From NCBI GenBank assembly GCA_004298675.1, contig SCRI01000074.1, forward strand, positions 1 through 21,357: 21,357 nt of DNA, given 5' to 3'. Origin of the DNA: a bacterium (lineage in GTDB: Bacteria; Vulcanimicrobiota; Vulcanimicrobiia; Vulcanimicrobiales; SCRA01). How positions within the stretch are numbered: position 1 is the stretch's first letter; every line of letters starts with the position of its first letter. A program made the translations under genes and the position numbers. Below the pieces are notes generated by a model that saw only the letters and a program-made list of their open reading frames with translations, was not told the origin of the DNA and searched no databases. Shown here piece after piece: positions 186 through 21,357 of the stretch.

Positions 186-196
186 GATGTTCTCCT

Positions 197-1072: not shown

Positions 1073-1101
1073 ACCTACTTACCTCCAAGAGGTGTGTGGA
1101 C

Positions 1102-3140: not shown

Positions 3141-3184
3141 CCCGCTGCGCCCTCCTGCGAGCTCGTCCGCTGCATGCTGAACAA

Positions 3185-3218
3185 TATCTTACAAGATAGA
3201 ATAAAAAAATTCAAGATA
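3185..3218 (-). promoter_or_regulatory. Promoter and candidate RpiR operator for the M20/RpiR operon
   Basis: On the minus strand a -35-like TTGAAT (3209-3214) is separated by 17 bp from a -10-like TAAGAT (3186-3191), giving a predicted start of transcription near 3179 and a leader of about 39 bases. A 14-bp inverted repeat, TATCTT-GT-AAGATA, covers 3185-3198 and so sits on the -10 box. A second copy of the half-site TATCTTG lies exactly 20 bp away, about two helical turns, overlapping the -35 box. The region is much more AT-rich than its surroundings. I infer that the RpiR protein of this operon binds here; this is from position and symmetry only. Confidence 0.6.
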
Positions 3219-3261
3219 GGAGCAGCAGAGGCCCCCACCCAGAACCCGCGAACCTCCGTAC

Positions 3262-4017: not shown

Positions 4018-4019
4018 GC

Positions 4020-4409: not shown

Positions 4410-4432
4410 GTCATCTCCTTTGTCGTCAGCTC

Positions 4433-6853: not shown

Positions 6854-7697
6854 AGAGGCCGTACGGTTTGATCATCAGCACCGCGACGAACAGCGCGAAG
6901 ACCACGAGATTCTGCAGCGCCGACGGCAGGAAGAGCGCCGAGAGCGACTGCGTGATGCCGACGATCAGACTTCCGATGACCGCGCCGTTGACGTTGCCGA
7001 GCCCGCCCAAGACGGCGATCGTGAACATGATGACGACGTACTGCAGGCCGATCGTCGGGTAGACGTAGGCGTACGGCAGGATCACCGCGCCGGCCAAGCC
7101 CGCCAGACCCGCGCCGATGGCGAACGCAACCATCCGCACCCGGCTCACGTTGATGCCGCTCAGCGTGGCGGCGACGGTGTTCACCGCCACCGCGCGCATG
7201 GCGCGGCCGAAGTCCGTGCGGACCAGAAAGAAGTAGAGTACGAGGTTGATCGCGGCTCCCCAGGCGAAGGCCAGTAAGTACGGGACCGAGATCGGAATCG
7301 GTCCAAGGAAGATCGAGGCCGTTTGATACGGTACGTGCACGGAGTGGAAGTCGGCCCCGAAGAATGCCAGCGCCGCGTTCTGCAATGCGATGGAGATGCC
7401 CACCGTTAGGAAGATCTGGCTGATCTCCGGCCCTCGCAGCACCCGGCGGACGAGCCAGCGCTCCAGCACGGCACCGATGCCGAAGAGGATGCCGAAGGCC
7501 AGCACCGCCGAGAGCATCGGGTCCAGGTGCAGGGCGACGTAGCTGAAGTAGGCGACGTACATGCCCACCATCAGGAACTCGCCCTGCGCGAAGTTGACGA
7601 TCTCCAGCACGCCGAAGATCAACGTCAAGCCGACCGTGATCAGCGCGTAGACCCCGCCGACCAGGATGCCGTTGACGAGCGCTTGGAGAACCGCCAT
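6831..7697 (-). CDS. livH: Branched-chain amino acid-type ABC importer permease (LivH-like)
   Basis: The 288-residue protein has about eight membrane segments and the LivH hallmarks GGVYALITVGLTLIFGVL and VNFAQGEFLMVGMYVAY in its first 50 residues, plus the coupling-loop motif GRAMRAVAVNTVAATLSGIN near residue 165. It forms the second half of the membrane channel. Its ATG at 7697 directly follows the TAG of the binding-protein gene with no spacer, so translation is almost certainly coupled. It is followed by the LivM-like, LivG-like and LivF-like genes in the usual order for this transporter class. Confidence 0.94.
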   Translation of the reverse strand: MAVLQALVNGILVGGVYALITVGLTLIFGVLEIVNFAQGEFLMVGMYVAYFSYVALHLDPMLSAVLAFGILFGIGAVLERWLVRRVLRGPEISQIFLTVGISIALQNAALAFFGADFHSVHVPYQTASIFLGPIPISVPYLLAFAWGAAINLVLYFFLVRTDFGRAMRAVAVNTVAATLSGINVSRVRMVAFAIGAGLAGLAGAVILPYAYVYPTIGLQYVVIMFTIAVLGGLGNVNGAVIGSLIVGITQSLSALFLPSALQNLVVFALFVAVLMIKPYGLFGRSHAH

Positions 7698-8915
7698 CTA
7701 CTTGACCGTTTTACCGTTCCACAGCGCGGACTGAACGCCGTGCGTGCTGGTTGGCCAGATGGTTACGAGGTTGTGGTTGCGCCACTGCACCATCACCGGG
7801 TAGGCATCGGTGTTCAGGCCGTTGGCGTCGAACTTGACGCCTGCTCCCGGCATGCCGGAGAACACGCCGCCCTTGACGTCGAGTGAGGCGAGCGCGTTGC
7901 GCAGCTCCTCGGAGTTGGAGGCACGCGATTTCTGCAGCGCCGCCGCGATGGCGAAGAGGCTGACCGCGTTCTCGTAGGCCTCGTGCGGCGCGAACGTGTG
8001 ATAGGCGGCCATGTAGGCCTTCTCGAAGGCGCCGTACTGATCGTAGGCCGAGGTGTCGATGCTCATGATGTTCTCGGTCAAGGATCCCAGCGTCTGCACG
8101 AACTCCGGAATCACGAACCCGGCCGCGCCGCCCACGATCTGCACCTTGGAGTGGCTCTGCGCGAGCGCGCGGATGATCAAGACCGCGTCGGTGAAGTATG
8201 AGATCGGAAAGAGGACCTGGGCGCCGCTGGCGTTGATCTTCTGCACCAGTGGGGTGGCATCGGTCAATCCATGCGGGTAGGCTTCGAAGAGCGCCACGTG
8301 AACGTGCAGGGCGTCGGCGGCACTCTGTAAGCCTTTCGCCTGTGAGGTGCCGTACGCCGTGTTTTCATAGACGATCGCGATACTCTTGAGCGGGTCGCCT
8401 GCGGCCTTGGCGATGTCAACCGCATAGGTCAGCTGCTTGGAGCCGATGACCGAGGCCTTGGGCACCACTTGGAAGGTGTTCTTGTAGCCGCGGCTGGTGA
8501 GGTCGTCCGTGAAGGACATCGTGAGGAACGGGATGCCCCGCCGCTCGCACACGGACGAACTGGTAAGGCTAAGAGAGCTGGCGTAAGCGCCAACTACGGC
8601 GATGGGGTGAACGTCGTCGATCAAGCGCGCGGTCGCGTTCGCGGCATCGGCTGGATCGCTCGTGCTATCGCGCACGACGAGGTTGATCTTGGCGCCGCCG
8701 AGCGCCGCGATGCCACCGTGGTCGTCGATCTCCTTGGCCGCGAGTTGTAGCCCCTGCACGGAGGTCTTGCCGAATGCCGCGAGGCTCCCCGTGAGCGGAA
8801 AGACCGCGCCTACGGTAATGGTCGACTCGGCCCGCGCCGCCGGTGGAACGGCGAGACAGGCCAATGTCATCGCCAGTGCGAGAACACCCGCAGCCAGCTT
8901 GGTGAAGTGTCGCAT
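7698..8915 (-). CDS. ABC transporter substrate-binding protein (type I periplasmic binding fold)
   Basis: The 405-residue protein starts with a classical Sec signal peptide (Arg/Lys-containing N terminus, a hydrophobic stretch GVLALAMTLACLAV, and a probable AxA cleavage site at ARA-ES, residues 27-31). The mature part opens with TITVGAVFPLTGSLAAFGK, the standard start of Leu/Ile/Val-binding-type receptors, followed by the paired Rossmann-like lobes of the family (Peripla_BP_6). It binds the ligand outside the inner membrane and delivers it to the LivH/LivM-like pair encoded directly downstream. The ATG at 8915 follows an AAGGGG ribosome site. It lies 23 bp after the dehydrogenase gene in the same operon. 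The ligand is unknown. Confidence 0.93.
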   Translation of the reverse strand: MRHFTKLAAGVLALAMTLACLAVPPAARAESTITVGAVFPLTGSLAAFGKTSVQGLQLAAKEIDDHGGIAALGGAKINLVVRDSTSDPADAANATARLIDDVHPIAVVGAYASSLSLTSSSVCERRGIPFLTMSFTDDLTSRGYKNTFQVVPKASVIGSKQLTYAVDIAKAAGDPLKSIAIVYENTAYGTSQAKGLQSAADALHVHVALFEAYPHGLTDATPLVQKINASGAQVLFPISYFTDAVLIIRALAQSHSKVQIVGGAAGFVIPEFVQTLGSLTENIMSIDTSAYDQYGAFEKAYMAAYHTFAPHEAYENAVSLFAIAAALQKSRASNSEELRNALASLDVKGGVFSGMPGAGVKFDANGLNTDAYPVMVQWRNHNLVTIWPTSTHGVQSALWNGKTVK

Positions 8916-8938
8916 GGTTTCCCCTTGTCTTCAGAGAG

Positions 8939-9844
8939 TCACTGAGGTACAGCGGAAAGCTCGAAATGCGCCCACGTTTCGAGCAGCGTCATGACACGGG
9001 TAAGGTCCGCGGAGGCACCCAGCGCCTCGCGCGCAAACAGATAGTGCTCCTCCGTTGCCGCCAGCATCGGCGCGGGCGTGTCCTGCTCTCGCGCAAGCGC
9101 TGCGGCGATGCTCAAGTCTTTGGCCATCAACCCGATCGAAAAGCCGTAGTCGAAGGTGCGCGGCAGGACTGCGCTCGGAACCTTCACCTCCACGGCATGC
9201 GAGCGTCCGGTGCTCGTCTTCCAGATGTCCACCATCACTTGAGGATCCAGTCCGGCGCGCGCGCCAACCAGCAGCGCTTCGGACGAGGCCCACATCGAGA
9301 CGGCAGACAGGAAGTTGTTCAGGGCCTTCAAGGTGTCGCCGGCGCCGATCGCGCCGACGTGACGGATGTTCTTGCACATGTGCGCCAGGAGCGGACGGTA
9401 GCGCTCGAGCAGCGCGATGTCTCCGCCTACCATGGTCGTCAGCTCGCCGGTCTTGGCGCGTGGCACGCCGCCGCTTACCGGCGCGTCGAGCATCGCCACG
9501 TTCTGCTGCGCGAGCTCCGCCGCCAGACGCTGCGTAGCCGATGGCGCCGAGCTCGACATGTCGATGACGATACGCCGCTTGCCGGTGTGGCCGCGCAGCG
9601 CGCCGTGCTCCCCGAGGATTGCTTCGCGCACGTGCTGATCGGTCGGCAAGCTCGTGATCACCACGTCGCCGGGCAGTGCGTCGGGATGGGTACTCGTGGC
9701 GACGCCTTGCTGGACGAAAGGTTCGAGCGCCGCTTCGTTGACGTCGGCTACGGCAAGCTCCACGCCGGCGTTTAAGAGACGGTGCGCCATCGGTTTGCCC
9801 ATGTGGCCGACGCCGATGAAGAGGACGCGATGTTGATCGTTCAC
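8939..9844 (-). CDS. 3-hydroxyisobutyrate dehydrogenase-family NAD(P) oxidoreductase
   Basis: The 301-residue enzyme has the beta-hydroxyacid dehydrogenase layout: GVGHMG (11-16) in the N-terminal Rossmann dinucleotide fold, the substrate-contact motif DAPVSGG (120-126), GELTTMVGG, and GAGDTLKALNN, where Lys173 is the conserved catalytic lysine. These enzymes oxidise 3-hydroxy acids (3-hydroxyisobutyrate, tartronate semialdehyde and related compounds) with NAD(P)+. The start is a GTG at 9844, with a GGAG ribosome site overlapping the stop of the upstream hydrolase gene. Its presence beside a CoA ligase, acyl-CoA dehydrogenase and crotonase recalls the lower valine/isobutyrate pathway. The substrate is not determined by these motifs. 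Confidence 0.9.
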   Translation of the reverse strand: MNDQHRVLFIGVGHMGKPMAHRLLNAGVELAVADVNEAALEPFVQQGVATSTHPDALPGDVVITSLPTDQHVREAILGEHGALRGHTGKRRIVIDMSSSAPSATQRLAAELAQQNVAMLDAPVSGGVPRAKTGELTTMVGGDIALLERYRPLLAHMCKNIRHVGAIGAGDTLKALNNFLSAVSMWASSEALLVGARAGLDPQVMVDIWKTSTGRSHAVEVKVPSAVLPRTFDYGFSIGLMAKDLSIAAALAREQDTPAPMLAATEEHYLFAREALGASADLTRVMTLLETWAHFELSAVPQ

Positions 9845-9851
9845 AGCTTAG

Positions 9852-10724
9852 TCACTCCGCTCCAGCTAGTGCCGCGGCATGTTGCCGCATACCGTGGAGC
9901 ACGGGTAAGAGGTGTTCTCGAAAACGCTGGTAGTGTTCGATCATCGGGAAGTGGCCGATCTCCGGCATGATGACGACCCGCGCTCCCGGGATCATGGCGC
10001 CGGCCTGTTGGGTGGCCTCCGGCAAGCACGAGTAGTCGTACTCGCCGGTGAGCAGCGCCACCGGGCAGACGTTGGTATCCACCTGAGCTAACTCGGCCTG
10101 CGCGTTCCACGGCTCACCGTAGAAAGCCAAATCTCCCGCGTAGACGCCTGGGGCGCCCTGGGCGTAGTACCACGCGTTCTCCCGCCGAAAGATCTCGGGC
10201 GACTGCGGCGCGCACAGGCCCAGCGTGTAGCCGGCAGCCAGCTCGCAACGATCGAGTCCGGGATTCTCGAGGTATTCGTTGACGCGGCCGGTGACGTACG
10301 CCGCGCTCTCGATACCGATCGCTCCCGCGAAACGCGCGGCGTGATGCGCCGCTAGCCGCAGCACGATCTGCCCGCCCATCGAGCAGCCCATCACGACCGG
10401 GCGGCCCAAGTTGAGACTCTCGCTGACTGCGAGCACGATACGCTCGTACGGTGCGGCCTGCAGGCGGTAGGGACTCTCCCACCACCTGCCTAGCGGTGCC
10501 GACCGCCCATGAAAGGGCAGATCGAACGCCACCACGCGCCACGCGCGCGTGATCTCCGGATCGTTGAGCAGGTACCGGTATTGCCGGCTGTCGGCGCCGG
10601 CGGTGTGGAGACAGAGCAGCACGGGGCCGCTGCCGGCCTCTTCAAAGTAGATGCGCGCGCGCTCTCCCGCCAGGTCGATCGACGCGTAGCGCCCGACGAT
10701 GTGCTCCACGTCAGTCACGGCCAT
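9852..10724 (-). CDS. Alpha/beta-fold hydrolase
   Basis: From the ATG at 10724 the product is 290 residues. It carries the alpha/beta hydrolase triad: nucleophile elbow GCSMGG with Ser115, acid Asp230 in GEYDYSC, and His258 in EIGHFPMIEH. The LLCLHTAG segment at 37-43 supplies the oxyanion hole. A longer frame extends 84 residues upstream, but that part is arginine-rich, has no family resemblance and overlaps the SCP2-like gene, so I reject it. The true start overlaps the upstream stop by 14 bp. It may hydrolyse an ester, a lactone (as PcaD does) or a CoA thioester in the pathway; the sequence does not decide between these. Confidence 0.9.
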   Translation of the reverse strand: MAVTDVEHIVGRYASIDLAGERARIYFEEAGSGPVLLCLHTAGADSRQYRYLLNDPEITRAWRVVAFDLPFHGRSAPLGRWWESPYRLQAAPYERIVLAVSESLNLGRPVVMGCSMGGQIVLRLAAHHAARFAGAIGIESAAYVTGRVNEYLENPGLDRCELAAGYTLGLCAPQSPEIFRRENAWYYAQGAPGVYAGDLAFYGEPWNAQAELAQVDTNVCPVALLTGEYDYSCLPEATQQAGAMIPGARVVIMPEIGHFPMIEHYQRFREHLLPVLHGMRQHAAALAGAE

Positions 10725-11106
10725 CGGATTGCTCCCGGCAGGTTCGGAGAAGCTCCAGCATGCGTGCCACGGCGCGAGCGTGGCGGACGGCCAGCAGCGT
10801 GTTGCCCTCCCAGCGAAACTCGGGCACGCGCATACGGAGCGCCCAGATGTCCGTGAACAGCGGCGGCGGTAGCGTGCGCGTGAAGCGCTCCCAGACGTCT
10901 TCCGGCGCGCGCAGCGCGAAGTCCCAAGGCGTGTCGAAGCGCGGCGCACCGAGCGCTCCCGCCACGCGCCCGTCACGAACGTGCACGAGCCATTGCTTGG
11001 CCCCGCATTCCAGCAGGATGTCGGCGGAGAAGAAGCGCGCCACGTTCGCGAACTCGGGATCGTTGTTCACGACGGCGGGCAGGCGGCTCACGAACGTCTC
11101 CATCAT
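10711..11106 (-). CDS. Small SCP2-like/unknown protein in the catabolic operon
   Basis: The 131-residue protein has no signal peptide or membrane segment. Its pattern of short strands and helices (RFFSADILLECGAKQWLVHVRDGRV, then WDFALRAPEDVWERF and a hydrophobic C-terminal helix) is reminiscent of SCP2 sterol-carrier-like domains, which bind acyl or hydrophobic ligands, but no diagnostic motif is present and the match is tentative. Its start overlaps the GntR gene stop by 4 bp (ATGA) and its end overlaps the alpha/beta hydrolase start by 14 bp, so all three are made together. A role as an accessory partner of the hydrolase is possible. The gene is well supported as coding; its function is not. 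Confidence 0.7.
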   Translation of the reverse strand: MMETFVSRLPAVVNNDPEFANVARFFSADILLECGAKQWLVHVRDGRVAGALGAPRFDTPWDFALRAPEDVWERFTRTLPPPLFTDIWALRMRVPEFRWEGNTLLAVRHARAVARMLELLRTCREQSDGRD

Positions 11107-11819
11107 GCCCCCACCTTACGTTTCCGCTCCGCCGCCGCCGCTGAGCGATCGCGCTCGGCCAGGATGTGCTTGGCAACCGCGGCTGCGCTGCGGACATGAT
11201 CGAGGCAGGCTTTCCAGGCCGCGTTGCCGTCGCGGGCGTCGATGGCCGCCATGATGCGCTCGAGTTCCTTGAGCGTCTTCTGTGAGCGGCCGGGAGAGGA
11301 GAGCGACGTCGCGCGCAGGAGGGTGATGCGTCCTTGGATCGCCTTCAGTTGGCCCATGAGGATCTCGTTGCCGGACCCGTCCATCAAAATCGCATAGAAG
11401 TGCGTCTTGGCACTCAGCCGGCTCTGAGCATCGGATCGTTTGAAATCGATCTTGATCTGCTCGAAAGCGGCGTCGAGCTCGCGGCGTTGAGCCGTGTTGG
11501 CTCGTTCGGCGAACAGCCGTCCCGCCAGCGCCTCCAAGACCGCACGCACCTCGTAGATGCTCTCGGCCTCTTCAAGGCTGACCGTTGCGACGATGGGCCC
11601 GCGATGCGGCACCGACGTGATCAGCCCTTCGCTCTCGAGCTGGCGGAGCGCTTCGCGCACGGAGGTGCGGCTCACGCCCAAGAGTTCGCAGAGTTCGCGC
11701 TCGATCAAACGCTGGCCGGGGAGGAATCGGCACGAGGTGATCGCGTCGCGGAGACGCTCGAAGACCTGCTGGCGAAGCGGCGCGGCGACTTTTTCAACGC
11801 GGAGCGAGAGATCTTTCAA
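11103..11819 (-). CDS. GntR-family (FCD subfamily) transcriptional regulator
   Basis: Read from a TTG at 11819 the protein is 238 residues, the usual size for FCD-type GntR regulators. It has an N-terminal winged helix (about 11-80, with LCELLGVSRTSVREALRQLESEGLI) and a C-terminal FCD effector domain (about 85-215), which typically binds organic acids through a metal site. An ATG at 11909 would give 268 residues, but that codon lies upstream of the promoter found at 11858-11887, and the TTG has a strong AAAGGAG ribosome site four bases before it. It is the first gene of the minus-strand operon and divergent from the acyl-CoA operon, so it probably represses both or at least its own. A pathway acid or its CoA ester is the likely inducer. 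Confidence 0.92.
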   Translation of the reverse strand: MKDLSLRVEKVAAPLRQQVFERLRDAITSCRFLPGQRLIERELCELLGVSRTSVREALRQLESEGLITSVPHRGPIVATVSLEEAESIYEVRAVLEALAGRLFAERANTAQRRELDAAFEQIKIDFKRSDAQSRLSAKTHFYAILMDGSGNEILMGQLKAIQGRITLLRATSLSSPGRSQKTLKELERIMAAIDARDGNAAWKACLDHVRSAAAVAKHILAERDRSAAAAERKRKVGA

Positions 11820-11857
11820 GAGACTCCTTTGGCGGGGCTCGCCATTGGTGTGCCGAG

Positions 11858-11887
11858 ATTGTAGATTGTCAGACAAACTGCTTGCAA
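11858..11887 (-). promoter_or_regulatory. Promoter with embedded GntR operator
   Basis: On the minus strand TTGCAA (11882-11887) and TACAAT (11858-11863, five of six bases of the -10 consensus) are 18 bp apart. Inside that spacer, at 11866-11876, is the perfect 11-bp inverted repeat TTGTCTGACAA (TTGTCAGACAA on the plus strand), matching the T-N-G-T-N3-A-C-N-A pattern of FCD-type GntR operators. A bound repressor would block RNA polymerase directly. The predicted transcription start is near 11851, about 32 bases before the TTG start of the GntR gene. The -35 lies in the 8-bp palindrome CTTGCAAG, so a divergent promoter may overlap, but I see no good plus-strand -10. Confidence 0.7.
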
Positions 11888-11991
11888 GACATGCAGACAA
11901 GTTTTTCATTACGCGGGAACTTGCGATGGGCTCCAGGACTAGCTCTGGGGGCGGCTGAAAGCGGGCGTGCGGGTGCTACGGAGGCAAGTAC

Positions 11992-13266
11992 ATGCACGAT
12001 AGCTTAGTCACTCGACGCACGTTTCTCCGAAGCACGACCGCGAGCGCGGCGGCAGCGGCGATCGGCTTTCCCGCCATCGTTCGCTCACGCGGATCCGCGG
12101 CCGAAACGCTGAAGATCGGTCTGCTGGAGGAGCTCACCGGCGTTCCCAGCGGCCTTGCCACGAGAAATGCCCGCGGCGCGATGATGGCGCTGGAAGCCTG
12201 GAACCAGCGCGGCGGTGTGTTGGGCAGGCAAGTCGAGGCCGTGGAAGAGGACTGCCAGACCAATCCCGGCGTCACCGTCACGAAGGTGCGCAAGCTCGTC
12301 AATCAAGATCGCGTCGTCGCTCTGATGGGAACGGTCAACAGTGCGGACACGCTTGCGGCGAGCGCGACGGCCAACTCGTTTGGCAAGGTGTTCATCGATC
12401 CGGGTGCGCACTCGGACCAGATCGTCGGCAAGAGCTGTCACTGGAACACGTTCATGACCTGCCACAACACGTGGCAGATGACGCACGCCACCGGCTTCTC
12501 CATTGCCAAGAAGCTCAGTAAGGAACGGTGGTACTTCGTCACGCCAGACTTCGCGTACGGGCACGATGTCGTGCACGGATACGAAGATGTGATCAAGCGC
12601 ATCGGCGGATCGATCGCCGGCAACGCACTGATCCCGCTGGGCACCAGTGAGTACAGCGCCTACATCACCAAGATTCAGAGCGCGTCGCCAAGCGTTCTCA
12701 TCGTCCTGCTCTTCGGCTCGGATCTGGTGAACTTCCTGAAGCAGGCGCGTGCCTTTGGCTTACTGGCTAAAGTCCCGGTTGCCGGTCCGCTCCTGTTCTA
12801 CGAAGATGCGTGGGCGATGGCGCCTGAGGATCGCGTCGGCTACTGGGGCGTCGACTGGTATTACAAGAGCGATTCCGTCTTGGGCTCCAACAACACGGTA
12901 GCGCGCGACTTCATCGCGGCCTACACCAAGCGCTACAAGGAGCCGCCGTCGGACTACAGCGCCACCGGCTATGTGTCGATGGACCGGCTGCTCTGGGCCA
13001 TCGATAAGGCTAAGTCGACCGACTCCGTGAAGATCGCGCGGACGCTCGAAGGGGCCGAGTTCCAATCGTTGTGGGCCGGCACCACTCACTACAGCCGCGT
13101 CAATCATCGCCTGATCTGGCCGGCGTGGTTCGGTCAGCTGCACGCTCACGGCACGGCGGACGACCCTTACGACATTCTCACCATCATCGACCGCCAGCCG
13201 CCGCATGAGGAAACGGCCGCGGAGCTGGCGGCGCGAGGCCAGGCCTGTAACCTCGGCTTTCCCTAA
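11992..13266 (+). CDS. Tat-exported ABC substrate-binding protein
   Basis: The 424-residue protein begins with a twin-arginine signal (TRRTFLRS at residues 7-14, then an alanine-rich hydrophobic run to about residue 37), so it is exported folded. The mature part starts TLKIGLLEELTGVPSG and has the type I periplasmic-binding fold of the amide/urea/branched-chain family. It lacks a lipobox. GGAGG lies about eight bases before the ATG. It is the first gene of the divergent catabolic operon and has no permeases of its own, so it probably shares the LivHMGF-like importer encoded on the other strand. Its C terminus is complete. The ligand is unknown. Confidence 0.9.
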   Translation: MHDSLVTRRTFLRSTTASAAAAAIGFPAIVRSRGSAAETLKIGLLEELTGVPSGLATRNARGAMMALEAWNQRGGVLGRQVEAVEEDCQTNPGVTVTKVRKLVNQDRVVALMGTVNSADTLAASATANSFGKVFIDPGAHSDQIVGKSCHWNTFMTCHNTWQMTHATGFSIAKKLSKERWYFVTPDFAYGHDVVHGYEDVIKRIGGSIAGNALIPLGTSEYSAYITKIQSASPSVLIVLLFGSDLVNFLKQARAFGLLAKVPVAGPLLFYEDAWAMAPEDRVGYWGVDWYYKSDSVLGSNNTVARDFIAAYTKRYKEPPSDYSATGYVSMDRLLWAIDKAKSTDSVKIARTLEGAEFQSLWAGTTHYSRVNHRLIWPAWFGQLHAHGTADDPYDILTIIDRQPPHEETAAELAARGQACNLGFP

Positions 13267-13278
13267 GAGTCTTACACC

Positions 13279-14427
13279 GTGGACTTCGCCCTTACCCCGG
13301 AACAGCAGAAACTCCAGCAAGAGATACGGACTTGGGTAGACGCCGAGATTCGCCCGCAGGCGGAGCAGCTTGACGAATCCGGCGCCTATCCCGTGGAGAT
13401 CATGCGCAGCGCCGCAGCACGCGGCTTTACCACGATCACGCTCCCGCAAGCCTACGGGGGGATGGGGCTTGGCGCCATTGAGGAGTGCATTCTCATGGAG
13501 GAGGCCTCCGCAGCCTCCGCCATCGTCGGTATCTCCCTGATCACGATCTACCAAGCTCAAACGATGCTTCAGCGCTACGGCAGCGAGCGGGTGAAGTCGC
13601 ACTTTCTGCCGCAGTTTCGTGAGGGGCTCGTCTCGTCGTACGCGCTGACCGAGCCGAAGCATGGCTCCGATATCCGCACACTCGATACCAAGGCCATTCG
13701 TGCCGGTGAGAGCTGGGTGTTGAATGGCCGTAAGGCCTTCATCACCAGTGCGTCCGCCGCCGGCCTCTTCGTCGTCTTAGCGGAAACCGGGGTCGGTGTC
13801 TCTGTCTTCGTGACGGAGCGCGACCGCGCCGGGGTCTCGCTCGAAACACCCGAGCGCTCCGAAACCGTCGGCTTGCGCAACGGGCCGCATATGGATGTTC
13901 GCCTCTCCGAGTGCCGCCTTCCCGATGAGTATCTCATTGGAACAGAGGGGAAAGGCGTCCGCCAAGCTGTGGAGGTCCTCGATCATAGCCGTATCGCCGC
14001 CGCTGCGATATCGCTGGGCATCGCACAGGCCGCGTACAGCGCTGCTGAACGTTGGGTGATGCATCGCAAAGCGTTTGATCAGCTCATCTTCGATTTTCAG
14101 GGTATTCAATGGAAGTTCGCCGACATGCGGATTGCCGTTGAAGCAGCGCGCCTGCTCACGTACCGTGCCGCCTGGCTCTTGGATCAAGGCGAGCTCCCCA
14201 TCGAGGCCTCGTCCATGGCGAAGGTCTACGCATCGGAGGTGGCAACGAAGTGTGCGCTCGAGGGTATGCAGGTGTGCGGCCTCAACGGTATTAGCGTGAG
14301 CGCGCCGTTTGGGCGCTATCTGCGCGACGCCAAGGCCTATGAAGTGGCGGGCGGCTCGTCGGAGATTCTGCGGAATACGATCGCCAAGGAGATCCGCAAA
14401 GCGTATAGGGGCGGAAAGCGCGAATGA
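13279..14427 (+). CDS. Acyl-CoA dehydrogenase family protein with unusual active-site residue
   Basis: The 382-residue flavoprotein has the three-part acyl-CoA dehydrogenase fold, with the FAD/substrate motif YALTEPKHGSD (121-131) and the C-terminal segment YEVAGGSSEILRN (354-366). These enzymes introduce an alpha,beta double bond into an acyl-CoA using FAD. At the position of the usual catalytic Glu (as in IYEGT of medium-chain enzymes) there is Gly358, and at the alternative position used by isovaleryl-CoA dehydrogenase there is Ser237 (LDHSR). The catalytic base is therefore not obvious. The start is a GTG at 13279, 12 bp after the binding-protein gene, and the stop overlaps the CoA ligase start by 4 bp. 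Confidence 0.92.
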   Translation: MDFALTPEQQKLQQEIRTWVDAEIRPQAEQLDESGAYPVEIMRSAAARGFTTITLPQAYGGMGLGAIEECILMEEASAASAIVGISLITIYQAQTMLQRYGSERVKSHFLPQFREGLVSSYALTEPKHGSDIRTLDTKAIRAGESWVLNGRKAFITSASAAGLFVVLAETGVGVSVFVTERDRAGVSLETPERSETVGLRNGPHMDVRLSECRLPDEYLIGTEGKGVRQAVEVLDHSRIAAAAISLGIAQAAYSAAERWVMHRKAFDQLIFDFQGIQWKFADMRIAVEAARLLTYRAAWLLDQGELPIEASSMAKVYASEVATKCALEGMQVCGLNGISVSAPFGRYLRDAKAYEVAGGSSEILRNTIAKEIRKAYRGGKRE

Positions 14428-15950
14428 CGCTGACCCTGCCCGCGTTGTTGTACGATAGCGCGAGCCGCTACGCCGCCCAACCGTTTCTCCTCAGCGACGA
14501 TCTCACGCTCGGCTACGCGCAGACGCTGGAACTGGTCGAGCGCTGCCAGACGTACCTGCGCTCGCTAGGCGTCGAGCGCGGCGCGCGTGTCGCCGTCTTA
14601 CTCGGAAACCACCCAGCCTTCGTCGTGTTATGGTTTGCACTGGCGTCTCTTGGCGCTGTCATGGTACCCGTCAATACGGCACTGAAGGGCCGCACGTTAC
14701 GCTTTATTCTTGAGCAGTCGGGATCGACGTTCTTGTTCGCGGAGGCCGGCTATCGCCGGGAGCTAGCCGAAGCCTTGGCTTCGGCAGAGGCGCCACCGCA
14801 CATCGTCGAACTTGCTGAGCCCGGCGAGCTCCTGTCCGTCGTGAAGGAACACGCTCCCGATCGGACGCAGGGCGCTGACGTTGCCGAAGGCGACGCCATG
14901 CTCATCGTCTATACGTCCGGCACGACCAGTATGCCGAAGGGCGCCGTCATCAGCCATCGGGCCTACGTGCGCGCCGGGCTGGACATGCGTGACAGTCTCC
15001 AACTCACAGCGCGGGACCGCTTCTATCTGTTTCTGCCGCTCTTTCACGCGAATCCGCAGGTATACGGGATCATGTCATCGCTGTGCGCGGGAAGCAGCAT
15101 CGCGGTGGACCAGCGTTTCACGGCCAGCCGTTTCTGGGAGCGCACGCTTCGCTTCCAGGCTACGCTGTTCACGTACGTTGGAACGGTCTTGTCGCTCGTG
15201 GCCCGCAGTGGGAGGCCGGCATCGGTGGGCTCCGTGCGTGCGTGCGTAGGTGGCGGGGCTCCGCTCTCGGCGTGGAAGACGATCGAATCGTGGGGCGTCG
15301 CGGTCAAGGAGCTTTACGGCATGACGGAGTTGGCCGCATTTACCACCATCAATAGCTTCGACCGTTGGCGGATGGGAAGCGTTGGCCTGGCGCGCCCCTG
15401 CCAAGAGGTCTCTATTTTGGACTCGGCCGGGAAGCCGGTAGCGGACGGCGTGACGGGCGAGATTGCCGTGCGTGGCCGGGAGCCGCACGTGATCTTCGAA
15501 GGCTACTACGAACAGCCTGACGTGACGAAAGCGGCGTTCACAGGTGGGTGGTTTCGCACTGGGGACGCGGGAAAGCGTGATGCTGACGGCTTCATCTACT
15601 TCGTTGGACGGAGTAAGGAGATGATCCGGCGCAAGGGCGAGAACATTTCACCTGAGCATGTCGAGGAGTTGCTGCGCGAGTGTCCGCTCGTGCGAGAGAC
15701 GGCGGCGGTGGGCGTACCCTCGGATCTCGGCGAGGATGAGTTGAAGCTCGTGGCTGTACCGAACGCTGCTGGAATTGACAGGTCACAAGTACATGCGTGG
15801 TGCAGAGATCATCTCCCCGCGTTCATGGTCCCGCGCTATTACGAACTGATCGAAGCCTTACCGAAGACTGCCACTGCGAAGACGGAGCGCAAACGACTCG
15901 CCGTTGTGGATGCAAAGACTTGGGATGCCTATGAGGAGGGAAAATCGTAG
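14424..15950 (+). CDS. AMP-forming acyl-CoA ligase
   Basis: The 508-residue adenylating enzyme shows the ANL-superfamily motifs in order: YTSGTTSMPKG (163-173, phosphate loop), LYGMTEL (297-303), FRTGD (377-381), the hinge region GRSKEMIRRKGENISP (395-410) and the C-terminal catalytic lysine Lys486 in KTATAK. It converts a carboxylic acid, ATP and CoA to acyl-CoA, AMP and pyrophosphate in the cytoplasm. Length and motif style are close to medium-chain, carnitine- or cyclohexanecarboxylate-type ligases, but the acid is unknown. The ATG overlaps the acyl-CoA dehydrogenase stop (ATGA). It supplies the CoA thioester used by the neighbouring dehydrogenase and crotonase. Confidence 0.94.
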   Translation: MTLTLPALLYDSASRYAAQPFLLSDDLTLGYAQTLELVERCQTYLRSLGVERGARVAVLLGNHPAFVVLWFALASLGAVMVPVNTALKGRTLRFILEQSGSTFLFAEAGYRRELAEALASAEAPPHIVELAEPGELLSVVKEHAPDRTQGADVAEGDAMLIVYTSGTTSMPKGAVISHRAYVRAGLDMRDSLQLTARDRFYLFLPLFHANPQVYGIMSSLCAGSSIAVDQRFTASRFWERTLRFQATLFTYVGTVLSLVARSGRPASVGSVRACVGGGAPLSAWKTIESWGVAVKELYGMTELAAFTTINSFDRWRMGSVGLARPCQEVSILDSAGKPVADGVTGEIAVRGREPHVIFEGYYEQPDVTKAAFTGGWFRTGDAGKRDADGFIYFVGRSKEMIRRKGENISPEHVEELLRECPLVRETAAVGVPSDLGEDELKLVAVPNAAGIDRSQVHAWCRDHLPAFMVPRYYELIEALPKTATAKTERKRLAVVDAKTWDAYEEGKS

Positions 15951-15951
15951 C

Positions 15952-16734
15952 GTGGCTGATATCGAGTATTCGGTGGAGCGCGGGGTCGCCACCATCACGC
16001 TCAATCGACCCGAGCGCAAGAATGCCTTTACCGTCCCCATGATCGATCAATGGGCAGAGCTCGTGCGTCGCGCCCGGACGGACGAAGCTGTGCGTGTCGT
16101 GATCCTCACGGGAGCCGGTGAGGCGTTCTGCGCCGGTATCGACATGGACAGCCTGGACGAGATCGGTCACGATCCATTGGCGTGGAAGGCGCTGCTGAAC
16201 GACCATATCAACCACGTCGCGTTTGCGATGGAGGAGTTGGATAAGCCGGTTATCGCAGCCGTCAGCGGACCCGCCGTGGGGGCGGGAATGGATATGGCCC
16301 TCATGTGTGACATGCGTTTCGCCGCCCCGTCTGCCCGGTTCTCCGAAGGCTACATTCGTCTCGGCTTGGTTCCAGGCGATGGCGGCTGCTACTATCTGCC
16401 GCGTCTCGTGGGGCCGGCCGTCGCGTTGGAGCTCCTGCTGACGGGCAATTTCATCGACGCCGAACAAGCGGAGCGGTACGGCATCGTCAATCGCGTGATC
16501 CGGGACGGGGATCTGATGGAAGCGACGCGTGCCGTGGCAATGAAGATCGCGGAACGCTCCCCGCTGGCGGTGCGCCTCACCAAACGGGCACTTTACCAGT
16601 CGCTGCGCAGCGATCTGCGCACGAGCCTGGACCTCATCTCGTCGCACATGGCGTTGATCCATACGACGCGCGATGCGGCAGAAGCGGTGGACGCGTTCCG
16701 GACGAAGCGTTCGCCGCACTTTGAAGGGAGATAG
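15952..16734 (+). CDS. Crotonase-fold enzyme (enoyl-CoA hydratase/isomerase family)
   Basis: From a GTG at 15952 the product is 260 residues. The crotonase fold is clear: VEYS-type N terminus, NRPERKNAF (18-26), oxyanion-hole segments AFCAGID (59-64) and VSGPAVGAGMDMALMCD (104-120), and RLGLVPGDGG (136-145). The two Glu residues of a classical hydratase (Glu144 and Glu164 of the rat enzyme) align with Asp114 and Tyr134 here, so simple enoyl-CoA hydration is not assured; hydrolase, isomerase or another crotonase chemistry is possible. An in-frame ATG at 15931 is an alternative start; AGGAGG near 15934 favours the GTG. It begins 1 bp after the CoA ligase stop, in the same operon. Confidence 0.9.
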   Translation: MADIEYSVERGVATITLNRPERKNAFTVPMIDQWAELVRRARTDEAVRVVILTGAGEAFCAGIDMDSLDEIGHDPLAWKALLNDHINHVAFAMEELDKPVIAAVSGPAVGAGMDMALMCDMRFAAPSARFSEGYIRLGLVPGDGGCYYLPRLVGPAVALELLLTGNFIDAEQAERYGIVNRVIRDGDLMEATRAVAMKIAERSPLAVRLTKRALYQSLRSDLRTSLDLISSHMALIHTTRDAAEAVDAFRTKRSPHFEGR

Positions 16735-16738
16735 CAGT

Positions 16739-17662
16739 GTGGGAGCCGACCACTTAGCCGATGTCTTCCCGGCGGGCCCGCCGGCGACGAATCTCATTGC
16801 CGGCACGGTGGACTTTCACGTCCACACGGGCCCCGATGCCTTCGACCGCGCGCTGGACGACGACGAAACGGTTGCGGTCGCGTCGCGCGCCGGGATGGGC
16901 GCGATCGTGCTGAAGAATCACGTCTCGGAGACGGCCAGCCGGGCGGTGCTCGCCCGCAAGCGCTCGGGGAGTGTGGAAGTCTATGGCGGCTTGGTGCTCA
17001 ACCACGCCGTGGGAGGCCTGAACGCCGGCGCGGTGCGCTGGATGGCGCGCATAGCGGGACGTCGCGGACGCGTGGTCTGGCTCCCTACGATCGACGCGGG
17101 CAATCACCGCCGTGTGCTCGGCGGCGACGCCGAAAGCGGGATCGAAGTCGTGCACGAGGGGAAGCCCACGGAGGCGCTCGTGCGCGTCATCCAGGCCTGC
17201 GCCGAAGGGGACCTCGTGCTGCAGACGGGCCATACCTCGGCCGACGACGTGCTGATCGTTGCCGCTGCCGCGCGTGCCCACGACGTGCGGGTGTGCGTCA
17301 CGCACGCCATGTTCCCGGTCGTTGGGTTCGACGTGCCGCGGATGCGCACGGCGGCTGCGCTGGGCGTGAAGCTGGAACTCTGCGCCGTCGGGATGCTGAT
17401 GGGCCCGCAGGCGCAGCATGCCTGGATGCGCGCCTGGGGCCACGTCGGTGCGCAAGCATGCGCCCAGGCCATCAAAGAGGTTGGCTCGCAGCACTTCATC
17501 CTGAGCACCGACCTTGGTCAGTTCGGCAACCCAACGCCAGCCGATGGCTATCGCTGGTTCATTCAGGAGCTTCTAAAAGAGGGCGTGTCGTCTCAGGAGA
17601 TCGACCTCATGGCGCGCCACACGCCAATGAGCCTATTGCAGCCCCGCGTACCGAACGAGTAA
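16739..17662 (+). CDS. DUF6282 family amidohydrolase-like protein
   Basis: Starting at a GTG at 16739 the protein is 307 residues. The DFHVHTGPD block (25-33) and overall pattern are those of DUF6282, proteins of unknown function related to the amidohydrolase TIM barrel. A full set of possible metal ligands is present in amidohydrolase order: His27 and His29, Lys59 in LKNH (possible bridging lysine), His165 in TGH, His189 in VTHA and Asp258 in STDLG. The last gene of the plus-strand catabolic operon, it starts 4 bp after the crotonase stop, with AGGGAG upstream. A hydrolytic or decarboxylating step on a pathway intermediate is a reasonable inference; no specific reaction is known to me. Confidence 0.82.
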   Translation: MGADHLADVFPAGPPATNLIAGTVDFHVHTGPDAFDRALDDDETVAVASRAGMGAIVLKNHVSETASRAVLARKRSGSVEVYGGLVLNHAVGGLNAGAVRWMARIAGRRGRVVWLPTIDAGNHRRVLGGDAESGIEVVHEGKPTEALVRVIQACAEGDLVLQTGHTSADDVLIVAAAARAHDVRVCVTHAMFPVVGFDVPRMRTAAALGVKLELCAVGMLMGPQAQHAWMRAWGHVGAQACAQAIKEVGSQHFILSTDLGQFGNPTPADGYRWFIQELLKEGVSSQEIDLMARHTPMSLLQPRVPNE

Positions 17663-17722: not shown

Positions 17723-17745
17723 GCAGGCTTCTGGCGGCAAGGCCT

Positions 17746-17773
17746 TTGCAACGAACCCTGTTTGATCTATACT
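17746..17773 (+). promoter_or_regulatory. Sigma70-like promoter of the hxs cassette
   Basis: TTGCAA (17746-17751) and TATACT (17768-17773) are separated by 16 bp, giving a predicted start near 17780 and a leader of about 40 bases before the hxsA ATG. GGGGGA about eight bases before that ATG can act as the ribosome site. The promoter lies in the 157-bp gap after the catabolic operon, so the cassette appears to be transcribed independently. No clear terminator of the upstream operon was seen in the gap. Confidence 0.6.
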
Positions 17774-17819
17774 AAGCCTGGCTTATCAAGCGCCTTTTCT
17801 TGCCGGGGGAACTATAAAA

Positions 17820-18101
17820 ATGGGCAAAGAGCGCGTGTTCCTGAGCTCTCTAGCGTTGGCAGTTGCATCACTTCTCACTGCAACTGGTCTCCAGACGGGC
17901 ACGGCAGCAGCCGAACAACTACCCACTGCGAATACGGTCGCGAATAGTGCCGCCCTTTCGAGCGGCCTGGTCTTGTCGAACGCGGGGGCGGCGACGCCTT
18001 CAGCGCAGCAGCACGAGTCGCATTACTCGCACGAGTCGCACGAGTCGCATTACTCGCACGAATCACACGAGTCGCACTATAGTCACATGTCGGGCTCATA
18101 A
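17820..18101 (+). CDS. hxsA: His-Xaa-Ser repeat precursor protein HxsA
   Basis: The 93-residue protein starts with a Sec signal peptide (MGKER, hydrophobic LSSLALAVASLLTA, probable cleavage after TAAA near residue 31). A low-complexity Ala/Ser/Thr linker follows, then nine uninterrupted His-X-Ser triplets at 65-91, ending Gly-Ser. The triplets form three 9-residue units: HES-HYS-HES twice, then HES-HYS-HMS. This is the modification target of the HXS system described from comparative genomics, in which paired radical SAM enzymes HxsB and HxsC and the small protein HxsD are encoded beside it. The order here, hxsA-hxsD-hxsB-hxsC, is complete. The precursor is short and simple, with no cysteine. 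Modification presumably occurs in the cytoplasm before export; the chemical product is not inferable from sequence. Confidence 0.9.
   Translation: MGKERVFLSSLALAVASLLTATGLQTGTAAAEQLPTANTVANSAALSSGLVLSNAGAATPSAQQHESHYSHESHESHYSHESHESHYSHMSGS
18012..18092 (+). repeat. Three tandem 27-bp units encoding the HXS array
   Basis: Units lie at 18012-18038, 18039-18065 and 18066-18092, each encoding nine residues. Units 1 and 2 differ at only two third-codon positions near the end of unit 2 (GAG/TCG against GAA/TCA). Unit 3 has more silent changes and one coding change (Glu to Met in the last triplet). The near identity of units 1 and 2 points to recent in-frame duplication, while the silent changes show that the protein pattern is under selection. 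Confidence 0.95.
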
Positions 18102-18112
18102 GAGCGAGCCCC

Positions 18113-18436
18113 GTGCTAGACTCAAGGCCGCCCGCGCCGCAACTCGAGTTGCGTGTGCCAATTCAAGTCTATGGACTTGAGACCGTAAAGAAGGCCGCAT
18201 ACAAGTTCACCGACCGCGCGTCATTTAGTTTCGTCGTCGATCGCGACGAGATTGTCTGTCATGTCGTCCTTAAGCCCGGCCGGGCGGCGTCTGAAGCCGA
18301 CGAGTTCCGACGAGCCTTCGATAACGAGCTCCTCGATCAAGATCTTCGACGCATCGTAAGCGAAGAGACCGGTGACATTCGTAATGCCGTACTGGCATAT
18401 GCTTTCTCCCGGTCAGGCCTGCAGCGAAATGAATAA
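18113..18436 (+). CDS. hxsD: His-Xaa-Ser system protein HxsD
   Basis: The 107-residue protein, from a GTG at 18113, has the HxsD pattern: a central VYGLETVKKAAYKFTDRASF segment (about 21-40), a short beta stretch and a C-terminal block FDNELLDQDLRRIVSEETGDIRNAVLAYAF, matching the family trait of a conserved L-L-N/D-x-x-L-R-x-x-I/V region. It has no signal peptide or cysteine. In the HXS system it always accompanies the radical SAM pair and may act as a peptide-recognition or scaffold protein; that role is inferred, not shown. It begins 11 bp after hxsA and overlaps hxsB by 8 bp. The ribosome site is weak, so coupling to hxsA is likely. Confidence 0.88.
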   Translation: MLDSRPPAPQLELRVPIQVYGLETVKKAAYKFTDRASFSFVVDRDEIVCHVVLKPGRAASEADEFRRAFDNELLDQDLRRIVSEETGDIRNAVLAYAFSRSGLQRNE

Positions 18437-19889
18437 GTTCCAGGCCCTCGAGAACTTTTCAGAATCGCTCGATAGTGGCTACAGTCTCCTGCCGTTTAAC
18501 TTTACGCGGCTTGACGGTGACGACTACGTTCTCACCAACATGGTCGGCGAATACCTGATTCTAGCTCGAGATGACCTTCAGGATTTTGTAAAGCACCGGC
18601 TCGCACCATCTACTGAAGCATACGTGTGCCTCAAAGCCAAGCACTTCTTGCTCGACCTGGATTCTAATGCCGCGATCGATTTACTGGCGCTCAAGGCGCG
18701 GACTAAGTTCGAGCGGCTCGCGAACTTAACGGGGCTTCACGTCTTTGTTGCAAGCCTACGATGCGAACATGCGTGTCCGTATTGCCAAGTATCACGCCAG
18801 AGCGACGACGCCTCGCGGTTCGATATGTCACCCGCTACCGCCGACAAAGCGCTTGCTCTGACATTTAGCTCGCCGTCACCCACAATCAAGATCGAGTTTC
18901 AGGGTGGGGAGCCACTGCTCAATTTCCCACTGGTGCAGTATGTCGTGGAGCGGGCTAAAATGTTGAACGCTTTGCATGGGCGCGACCTACAATTCGTTAT
19001 TGCGACTAATCTCGCGCTCGTAACCGACGAGATCCTAGCCTTCTGCAAAACACACGAAATTCTTATCTCCACGTCTTTAGACGGCCCTGCGGACCTCCAT
19101 AATAAGAATCGCCCGCGCCCCGGTAACGATTCCCATCAGCGTGCTGTTGATGGCATCAATATGGCGCGCAGTAGGCTCGGACGGAACCGTGTGAGCGCCT
19201 TGATGACGACCACGAAGGCAAGCCTTGGACGAGTTCGAGAAATTATTGATGAATATGTGCGGCTCGAGTTTCCCGGAATATTCCTCCGCCCGCTTTCGCC
19301 CTACGGGTTTGCTGTCAAGACGAAGTATTATAGCGCATACAACGCTGACGAGTGGCTCGCGTTCTACTTTGAAGGGCTTGAGTATATTATACAGCTGAAT
19401 CAAAATGGAATTGCCTTTCGCGAGTTTTATGCGTCGTTGATACTAAGCAAGATGCTCACCCCATTTGGAACCGGCTTTGTCGATCTCCGTAGCCCTGCTG
19501 GAATCGGTATCGGTGCGATAGTTTACAATTATGATGGTGACGTATACGCTTCAGATGAGAGCCGCATGCTGGCGGAGATGGGAGACAAGACGTTTCGCCT
19601 GGGAAACGTTCACAACAATACGTGGGAGGAGATTATCACTGCTGATGTTCTACTCGATGCCCTGGAATCGAGCTATACCGGCAGCGCGCCGATGTGCTCG
19701 GAATGCGCCTTCGAGCCATTTTGTGGTGCGGATCCCGTCTTCCATTATCGAACCCAGGGAGACACGGTAGGGAACAAACCGAACTCCGCGTTTTGTAAAC
19801 GCAATATGGCGATCTTCCGCTATTTGGTCAGCCGCATGCGCGAGGATGCGGCGGTACACAGCCTGTTCCGCGGCTGGATCCGGATCTAG
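18429..19889 (+). CDS. hxsB: His-Xaa-Ser system radical SAM maturase HxsB
   Basis: From the ATG at 18429 the protein is 486 residues. The radical SAM cluster motif CxxxCxxC is at Cys112, Cys116 and Cys119 (RCEHACPYC), followed by GGEP (159-162), both binding the iron-sulfur cluster and SAM. A C-terminal SPASM-like region has Cys423, Cys426, Cys432 and Cys456, able to hold auxiliary clusters. The long N-terminal part before the motif, with LLPFNFTRLDGDDYVLTNMVGEYLIL, is typical of HxsB. A frame open 19 codons further upstream overlaps hxsD and lacks family resemblance, so I chose the start that overlaps the hxsD stop. It probably modifies the His-X-Ser array of HxsA together with HxsC. Confidence 0.93.
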   Translation: MNKFQALENFSESLDSGYSLLPFNFTRLDGDDYVLTNMVGEYLILARDDLQDFVKHRLAPSTEAYVCLKAKHFLLDLDSNAAIDLLALKARTKFERLANLTGLHVFVASLRCEHACPYCQVSRQSDDASRFDMSPATADKALALTFSSPSPTIKIEFQGGEPLLNFPLVQYVVERAKMLNALHGRDLQFVIATNLALVTDEILAFCKTHEILISTSLDGPADLHNKNRPRPGNDSHQRAVDGINMARSRLGRNRVSALMTTTKASLGRVREIIDEYVRLEFPGIFLRPLSPYGFAVKTKYYSAYNADEWLAFYFEGLEYIIQLNQNGIAFREFYASLILSKMLTPFGTGFVDLRSPAGIGIGAIVYNYDGDVYASDESRMLAEMGDKTFRLGNVHNNTWEEIITADVLLDALESSYTGSAPMCSECAFEPFCGADPVFHYRTQGDTVGNKPNSAFCKRNMAIFRYLVSRMREDAAVHSLFRGWIRI

Positions 19890-19891
19890 TA

Positions 19892-21055
19892 ATGATCACC
19901 TTACGCTCGAGCAATCTGCAGTATCAGAACCTTGAGAACCACGAGCCGTTCATCATCCGTATTTCCACCAATGCCATGCTGCCGGAGCCACTGCGCGCAG
20001 GCGTTGCCTATCTGATTAGCGACGAGCCCCTGCCTGACGGCTTCTGTGTGTACTTGAAAGTTCGAGACCCCGACCGCAAGGAGACACTGCCGCCACATGT
20101 GGCAGGCGTGACCTTGCCGGAGGAGTTTTCTTATCTAAGCGATGGTGACGTCATTCGACTGTCACCGCGCGGCAGAAGCATTCGCGTGCTGTACCGCAAG
20201 GGATCCGAATTCAATCACTTTCTCCTCACTGAGCGATGCAACAACTACTGCTTGATGTGTTCACAGCCACCGAAGATCGCAGATGACTCATATATCGCCG
20301 GCGAGATACTGAGTACAATTCCGCTAATCGACCCAGGGACGAAAGGGCTTGGGCTTACGGGCGGTGAGCCGACGTTGCTGGGCGAGGGCCTCATAAAGAT
20401 TTTAGAGGCGTGTGAAACGTGGCTGCCACGCACCGCGGTACACCTGCTGTCTAATGGCCGTCGCTTTTCGGAGTTACGATTTGCACAACAGTATGCGAAC
20501 GTTCGTCATCATGACTTGATGGTGGGCATACCCTTATATTCCGATCTATCACACCTTCATGACTTTGTGGTTCAGGCTGACGGTGCGTTTGACGAAACGC
20601 TTCGTGGGATCCTCAATCTAAAGCATTTAGGGCAGCGCGTTGAGATTCGAGTGGTAATACACAAGCAAACATACAAGCGTCTTCCACAGCTCGCAGAATT
20701 CATAACGCGTAACCTACTATTTGTCGATCATGTGGCACTCATGGGTCTTGAATTAATGGGCTTTGCTAGAGCGAATCTCGATGCTCTGTGGATCGATCCG
20801 TTCGACTACCAAGATGAGCTTGTGGCCGCTGTAGAGCAGCTCGTGGCGTATCGGATGCATGTATCAATTTACAACCATCAACTGTGCGTGTTGCGTCCGA
20901 ACCTCTGGCGCTATTCAAGGAAATCGATATCTGATTGGAAGAATGAATATATGCCGGAGTGTGAGGGCTGCGGCCAGCGCGATGCCTGCGGTGGCTTCTT
21001 TTCATCGGCACAACTCAAACATAGCGCGCACATTAGACCGCTGTCGCGGGCGTAG
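19892..21055 (+). CDS. hxsC: His-Xaa-Ser system radical SAM maturase HxsC
   Basis: The 387-residue protein begins 2 bp after hxsB. Its radical SAM motif is Cys116, Cys120 and Cys123 (RCNNYCLMC), followed by GLTGGEPTLLG (GGEP at 157-160) and LLSNGRR. A C-terminal cysteine group (Cys357, Cys360, Cys366, in CEGCGQRDACGGFF) can hold an additional cluster and ends with the HxsC-type GGFFSS...IRPL tail, so the gene is probably complete although the IS21-like remnant begins within about 10-20 bp. The N-terminal 100 residues precede the barrel as in other HxsC proteins. It is the partner of HxsB; which of the two does which reaction is unknown. Confidence 0.92.
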   Translation: MITLRSSNLQYQNLENHEPFIIRISTNAMLPEPLRAGVAYLISDEPLPDGFCVYLKVRDPDRKETLPPHVAGVTLPEEFSYLSDGDVIRLSPRGRSIRVLYRKGSEFNHFLLTERCNNYCLMCSQPPKIADDSYIAGEILSTIPLIDPGTKGLGLTGGEPTLLGEGLIKILEACETWLPRTAVHLLSNGRRFSELRFAQQYANVRHHDLMVGIPLYSDLSHLHDFVVQADGAFDETLRGILNLKHLGQRVEIRVVIHKQTYKRLPQLAEFITRNLLFVDHVALMGLELMGFARANLDALWIDPFDYQDELVAAVEQLVAYRMHVSIYNHQLCVLRPNLWRYSRKSISDWKNEYMPECEGCGQRDACGGFFSSAQLKHSAHIRPLSRA

Positions 21056-21243
21056 GGTCAGGTGTGAGCGAGAAGCGAAATGCCCCCGGCTTCGAGAATC
21101 GAAGTGCCCCCACCCTAGGCGGTTGATTTGGCGGTCTTGAGTTTCGCTCCCGCTTGCGCGCGCTGGGCGCGGGTGCGATAGCTCTCGCCGATGATCGGGA
21201 TGATGTGGGCGTGGTGGACCAGGCGGTCGAGAACGGCTGAAGT
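21056..21243 (-). mobile_element. Remnant of an IS21-like insertion sequence (istB end)
   Basis: This stretch holds the tail of istB (21115-21243) and, between it and hxsC, two direct copies of a 14-bp motif, AGCGAAATGCCCCC (21074-21087) and ATCGAAGTGCCCCC (21098-21111), 24 bp apart. Repeated terminal motifs of this kind, ending in a run of C, are typical of IS21-family ends. A CTTCGA-GAA-TCGAAG hairpin (21090-21104) lies in the same region. The outer end probably falls a few bases after the hxsC stop, near TG at 21063-21064. The rest of the element is missing because another element interrupts it. Confidence 0.7.
21115..21243 (-). pseudogene. istB: IstB-like ATPase, C-terminal fragment
   Basis: About 40 codons read AVLDRLVHHAHIIPIIGESY followed by RTRAQRA and a short basic tail, then TAG at 21115. 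This is the characteristic C terminus of IstB, the AAA+ helper ATPase of IS21-family transposition. The upstream 200-odd codons, with the Walker motifs, are replaced by unrelated sequence from about 21243 onward, so the fragment cannot work. Confidence 0.85.
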
Positions 21244-21357
21244 GACCCCCTCGGGGACTGGACACCTCTGAAGCGAAGTGAAGGTGTCCGATGAAGAAAC
21301 CCACTCCACCGGCCAGTCCGGCGAGCGAGCCCGAAGCGTTCGGGCGCTGGACCGCGC
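21243..21357 (+). mobile_element. Left end of a second insertion sequence, probably IS3-type
   Basis: The sequence breaks away from istB at about 21243 with TGACCCC. It then has an 8-bp inverted repeat GGACACCT (21260-21267) and AGGTGTCC (21282-21289), followed one base later by an ATG. A TGGACACC-type start with a short hairpin just before the first ORF is common in IS3-family elements. The element continues past the window, so family assignment is tentative. Confidence 0.5.
21291..21357 (+). CDS. Transposase OrfA-like protein, N-terminal fragment
   Basis: The 22 visible codons begin MKKPTPP and end FGRWTA, resembling the start of HTH transposase-accessory proteins in which a G-R-W-[ST]-A motif leads into the first helix. 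The gene follows the TGGACACC-type inverted repeat of the insertion sequence and runs off the right edge. Too little is present to name a family securely; IS3-type OrfA is the first choice. Confidence 0.45.
   Translation, partial: MKKPTPPASPASEPEAFGRWTA

Follow-up and report, generated by a model that had tools for sequence, protein, structure and literature searches.

Haft and Basu predicted the His-Xaa-Ser (HXS) system and, within it, a peptide modification by the proteins HxsB and HxsC. As far as the literature we searched shows, the chemistry of its product is uncharacterised. The system is widespread (Klebsiella plasmids, symbiosis plasmids, a Leptospira phage, IMG/VR contigs) and takes two main layouts: a short HxsA gene placed first (A-D-B-C), or a long HxsA gene, encoding a peptidoglycan-binding domain, placed last (D-B-C-A). 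Here we describe a small, complete copy of the first layout in a 21,357-nucleotide stretch from a bacterium of the Vulcanimicrobiales, an order in a little-studied phylum (contig SCRI01000074.1, assembly GCA_004298675.1; hereafter "the window"), where four co-directional genes (17820–21055) encode an HxsA-type precursor followed by HxsD, HxsB and HxsC. By NCBIfam profile scores judged against curated cut-offs, the cassette is an HXS system of the kind already described (Haft and Basu) and not a new system.

A short-form HXS cassette and its relatives

HxsB, HxsC and HxsD score above their NCBIfam cut-offs (625, 396 and 65 bits, respectively; Table 1), which bears out the HxsA/HxsD/HxsB/HxsC identity given in an earlier note on this DNA, together with the coordinates, lengths and order at which it had placed the four genes; in the profile search that it had proposed, only HxsA itself falls below cut-off. 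The note had named a lack of HxsB, HxsC and HxsD matches above trusted cut-offs as a refutation, and its identification withstands that test. The genes are tightly packed, with an 11-bp gap between hxsA and hxsD, an 8-bp overlap of hxsD and hxsB and a 2-bp gap between hxsB and hxsC. We identify the precursor as HxsA-type because of its array and its three partner genes, and not from an HxsA profile score: it reaches 29.1 bits against HxsA4 (NF038313, an exception model; cut-off 55), 19.5 bits against HxsA3 (below cut-off), 17.9 bits against HxsA2 (NF038296; cut-off 48) and 11.9 bits against the long-form HxsA (TIGR03979; cut-off 121.65). The pairing partner of HxsA4 also differs, in that the window encodes HxsC and not HxsC4 (37.6 of 500 bits). 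In a control scan of ten precursors from related cassettes, eight missed every HxsA cut-off and only those of Methylophilus and Paraburkholderia passed any. The HxsA models therefore look incomplete, and a sub-cut-off score—common among short HxsA proteins—does not exclude HxsA here.

Table 1. Features of the HXS cassette and of its flanks (window coordinates).
Feature	Coordinates	Strand	Description
HxsA-type precursor	17820..18101	+	93 residues; signal-peptide-like N-terminus, linker, nine His-X-Ser triplets, C-terminal GS
His-X-Ser array	18012..18095	+	About residues 65–91; X = EYEEYEEYM; from array comparison
HxsD	18113..18436	+	107 residues, GTG start; TIGR03976 64.7 bits (cut-off 50)
HxsB, radical SAM maturase	18429..19889	+	486 residues, ATG at 18429; TIGR03978 625.2 bits (cut-off 370)
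HxsC, second radical SAM maturase	19892..21055	+	387 residues; TIGR03977 395.8 bits (cut-off 267.9)
Sigma-70-like promoter candidate	17745..17773	+	TTTGCA-17-TATACT (or TTGCAA, spacer 16); 9/12 to consensus; weak
IS21-family istB remnant (C-terminal part)	21118..21309	-	PF01695 8.7e-9; bounds the cassette downstream
119-bp repeat	21238..21356		Identical in three other contigs of the genome; mobile-element boundary at contig end

Relatives of HxsB were collected from genomes, the host phylum, plasmids, phages and IMG/VR contigs, and 36 loci were compared. HxsB and HxsC occur together in all 36, and BLAST links HxsD to them in 29; no extra gene recurs beside A-D-B-C in these loci, the other shared open reading frames lying inside hxsB or hxsC in other frames. 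The absence of further genes is not readable from the window alone, since insertion-sequence (IS) remnants and the contig end lie within 302 bp of the cassette; it is across the 36 loci that the lack of a dedicated transporter or protease, claimed earlier from the window, holds, as neither recurs beside the system. What had been called a "compact version" is indeed a short A-D-B-C layout, though one that has no special status, being usual on many plasmids and chromosomes.

The cassette shares its gene order and tight packing with the short-form HxsA2/D/B/C systems of Paraburkholderia phenoliruptrix pSYMBR3459 and Nostoc sp. C057 p057_G, whose precursors are likewise short and secreted, with the array at the C-terminus, and whose HxsB proteins are 59–60% identical to that of the window. 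Its array differs from theirs in having nine triplets (theirs have 5–6), in being strongly acidic and in lacking Ser, Arg, Ala and Gly at X, while the precursor scores under the HxsA2 cut-off and ends in GS where theirs frequently end in ...Y. The long form (TIGR03979-type, PG_binding_1; Klebsiella, Aeromonas and Roseomonas plasmids) has HxsB, HxsC, HxsD and the H-x-S array in common with the window, but its HxsA lies at the 3' end, measures about 180–260 residues and has a peptidoglycan-binding domain, and its HxsB is 34–44% identical. The closest HxsB (69%) and HxsC (64%) belong to G039, a genome of the same order as the host (loci L012/L069), whose precursor has a similar leader start; this cassette, however, encodes two precursors and has S, N, A or G at X. 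The second of these HxsA-like precursors (L069, 8160–8909, minus strand) adjoins the ordinary HxsA and consists of an array followed by a C-terminal domain of ~150 residues without a Pfam match.

On plasmids, matches to the system include 316 Klebsiella records as well as rhizobial and sphingomonad plasmids, and 270 of the 340 HXS-matching plasmids are typed conjugative. The one Klebsiella plasmid inspected has a long HxsA, with the cassette between IS3 and IS30 elements. Among viral contigs (IMG/VR), a single-protein query gave 0 matches and an alignment query 16. A Leptospira phage (L066), a Leptospira plasmid (L061) and an IMG/VR contig (L073) have near-identical HXS cassettes, each followed by a gene for a "mobilome CxxCx(11)CxxC" protein (annotated in the phage and the plasmid). 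Novosphingobium resinovorum pHR1a (L067) has HxsD-B-C with an IS66 accessory gene upstream and no H-x-S array found, the precursor possibly having been lost to insertion. A role in anti-phage defence was also considered, but in PADLOC the sole matches were to viperin models, of the generic radical SAM kind.

The precursor and its repeat unit

HxsA begins with MGKERVFLSSLALAVASLLTATGLQTGTAAAEQ, judged by eye to be signal-peptide-like with an AAA/E site, and continues through a linker into the array HESHYSHESHESHYSHESHESHYSHMS and a final GS; a Pfam scan of the protein returned no domain, hence no peptidoglycan-binding C-terminus. The nine consecutive His-X-Ser triplets reported earlier are uninterrupted (X = E, Y, E, E, Y, E, E, Y, M), which in 93 residues is no chance event. 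Their codons vary while the protein pattern is kept (H, 7 CAC and 2 CAT; S, 7 TCG, 1 TCA and 1 AGT; E, GAG and GAA).

We compared this array with others in a set of 37 distinct arrays, whose selection dictated H and S but left the array boundaries free. Only one array has an S ahead of its first H (i.e., 36/37 start directly with H), and the last H continues as xS in 37/37, so that the repeat unit is H-x-S; the same boundaries rule out S-H as the unit. The X position is tolerant (S 103, R 44, Y 24, A 21, G 13, E 9, T 5, N 4, Q 3, M 2, H 2, C 2, V 1), which probably narrows the modification target to the His and Ser of the unit. Tyr and Glu, which the earlier note had counted among the candidate sites, are rejected as likely targets, given that X varies freely across the 37 arrays.

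Within this set, the array of the window is the most acidic (net charge at X -5; others -3 to +4) and the sole one without Ser, Ala or Gly at X. Its repeat Ser is thus not confusable with a Ser at X in mass spectrometry. The second most acidic array, with X = EEYSEYY, comes from the same phylum (L013). Another same-phylum HxsA (G131; L014, 3312–3629, minus strand) has a degenerate array (HFSHGNHYSGDHWSGGGHGSHGSHWSGW), in which Gly-rich inserts break the H-x-S spacing.

Radical SAM enzymes and the candidate modification

Both enzymes carry the features that the earlier note had read in these radical S-adenosylmethionine (SAM) proteins—CX3CX2C, GGEP and C-terminal cysteines—and the C-terminal cysteines are conserved. 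Across six phyla, 21 HxsB sequences have C112/C116/C119 and C423-x2-C426-x5-C432-x23-C456 as invariant cysteines (21/21), and no others; among eight HxsC sequences, C332, C357, C360 and C366 are conserved (8/8) beside the radical SAM cysteines C116/C120/C123. By profile alignment with structures in the Protein Data Bank (PDB), HxsB resembles CteB and the anaerobic sulfatase-maturating enzyme anSME, and against the latter (PDB 4k37, E 1.5e-22) its C-terminal cysteines fall on the CX2CX5C motif and the later Cys, which we take, from the published anSME structures, to ligate auxiliary cluster II (aux II). The radical SAM core and the CX2CX5C ligand set of anSME and CteB are alignable with HxsB, but both enzymes retain the cysteines of auxiliary cluster I (aux I), of which HxsB has none (21/21): the aux I Cys of YPCD in anSME is replaced by S375 (19/21, with A or G in the rest), and the one four residues past CX2CX5C by P436 (21/21). 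The neighbouring D376, which aligns with the Asp after an aux I Cys in anSME, is invariant (21/21).

HxsB thus has four cysteines of aux II type only, where a two-cluster SPASM domain has seven or eight, and it scores 15.8 bits against Pfam SPASM, under the cut-off of 21.5. From these ligands we predict a SPASM architecture with aux II alone, a prediction about the enzyme that the absence of an aux I site makes testable. Characterised SPASM maturases mostly have two auxiliary clusters, with aux II ligated by four Cys in anSME, CteB, MftC and SuiB (PMC10452713), and a literature search for a natural aux II-only SPASM form found none, the phrase being met only for engineered variants. Against models of peptide-crosslinking SPASM maturases, HxsB scores 101 bits for PapB and 79.6 of 445 bits for the cyclophane-forming YhhB; the anSME model TIGR03942 gives 78.5 bits. 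The HxsC model is of moderate quality, with a predicted local distance difference test (pLDDT) score of 73 that drops below 50 in the C-terminal cluster region, and we therefore make no claim on the auxiliary cluster geometry of HxsC. The AlphaFold2 model of HxsD (pLDDT 85) has a beta-alpha-beta-beta fold followed by a 40-residue helix.

From these features we infer, tentatively, that HxsB and HxsC, together with HxsD, modify the H-x-S triplets of a horizontally acquired HXS system, perhaps into His-Ser rings, ahead of export by Sec. HxsA would be made with an export signal at its N-terminus; in the cytoplasm, HxsB and HxsC, aided by HxsD, would work through the triplets one by one; the most likely product would be a three-residue ring per triplet, joining the His side chain to the Ser two residues on with a loss of 2 Da each; and the modified HxsA would then leave through the general Sec pathway. 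Modification followed by Sec export fits the 36 loci, since no dedicated transporter or protease recurs in them. Known three-residue cyclophanes (triceptides) join an aromatic residue to the beta-carbon of the residue two positions on, and a His-Ser ring is preferred because the fixed residues match this geometry and HxsB is distantly similar to YhhB. The peptidoglycan-binding domain of long-form HxsA proteins places the product outside the cytoplasm and suggests an envelope role. A bolder version, in which an aux II-only HxsB and HxsC would make consecutive His-Ser rings (up to nine) that yield a rigid peptide which is exported and binds metal or associates with the envelope, with the acidic E/Y array a distinct functional version, seems doubtful to us.

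Several points weigh against His-Ser ring formation. The absence of aux I ligands in all 21 HxsB sequences makes the analogy with the characterised two-cluster SPASM crosslinkers imperfect; the cyclophane precedent is general background; and HXS chemistry in the literature we searched is prediction only. HxsD has no confident structural match (Foldseek best E 9e-3; VIA-align mixed, Z <8), and a role for it in leader recognition is therefore a guess: several of its weak matches are ferredoxin-like, and none to the PqqD/RRE-type winged helix is confident. Some other modification is a possible reading, for instance chemistry at the alpha- or beta-carbon of His or Ser that closes no ring, epimerisation, or a bond between His residues, with the modified array acting as a rod that binds metal or is associated with the cell wall. 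Two different radical SAM enzymes could run two different reactions, and both the His-rich array and the peptidoglycan-binding domain of long-form HxsA suit such a rod. Yet no specific evidence favours any of these options, and the strict H-x-S spacing suggests that both residues matter together.

The main named rival, which we consider unlikely, is oxidation of the Ser in every triplet to formylglycine or a comparable carbonyl, the change that anSME makes to sulfatases before Sec export; it would give an aldehyde array that binds or crosslinks an envelope target. The similarity of HxsB to anSME (TIGR03942 and PDB 4k37, above) and the alignment of the invariant D376 with the residue after an anSME aux I Cys speak for it, as do a substrate that looks secreted and a Ser that is fixed in the repeat. 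But the anSME substrate motif is absent from the precursor and aux I from HxsB, and Ser oxidation leaves the fixed His and the need for two radical SAM enzymes unexplained. Least probable is a cassette that is the decaying or silent passenger of mobile elements: while an IS21 remnant and a multi-copy repeat lie on its 3' side, congeners of the host lack it and its promoter is unproven, none of the four frames is disrupted, no invariant cluster cysteine is missing and the array codons have changed synonymously under a constant protein pattern. His-Ser ring formation remains the reading that we prefer.

Probable lateral transfer and flanking DNA

The cassette looks horizontally acquired, given its lower G+C content, its sporadic occurrence in the host phylum and the placement of its HxsB in the tree. 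G+C is 53.7% in the cassette and 63.5% in window positions 1–17662, and at third codon positions 58–66% as against 74–82% for three upstream genes. HxsB scores above cut-off in four of 149 genomes of the phylum and in none of three congeners. In the HxsB tree, the sequence of the window pairs with that of G039 (85/92 support) within a set drawn mostly from proteobacteria and plasmids, among alphaproteobacterial and plasmid-borne relatives, and the four sequences of its own phylum do not group as a single clade. The upstream genes had no substantial match when 18 genomes of the phylum (congeners not among them) were sampled, so that this comparison showed no empty site.

The "own promoter" of the earlier note stands only as a candidate: the 9/12 match is present, but it is one of six of that quality in 3.76 kb, where 2.1 are expected, and is not conserved among relatives, no conserved promoter or upstream motif being found across 15 upstream regions of related loci. 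A terminator scan between this candidate and the upstream same-strand gene found none, and an Rfam scan of the window gave no RNA element match.

On the 3' side, the 119-bp repeat also ties the contig to the rest of the genome. The remainder of the window (1–17662) reads as a catabolic island unrelated to the cassette, with a polysaccharide-deacetylase-like protein and branched-chain amino-acid ABC transporter genes; by Pfam, it further encodes metallo-beta-lactamase-fold, acyl-CoA dehydrogenase and DUF6282 proteins.

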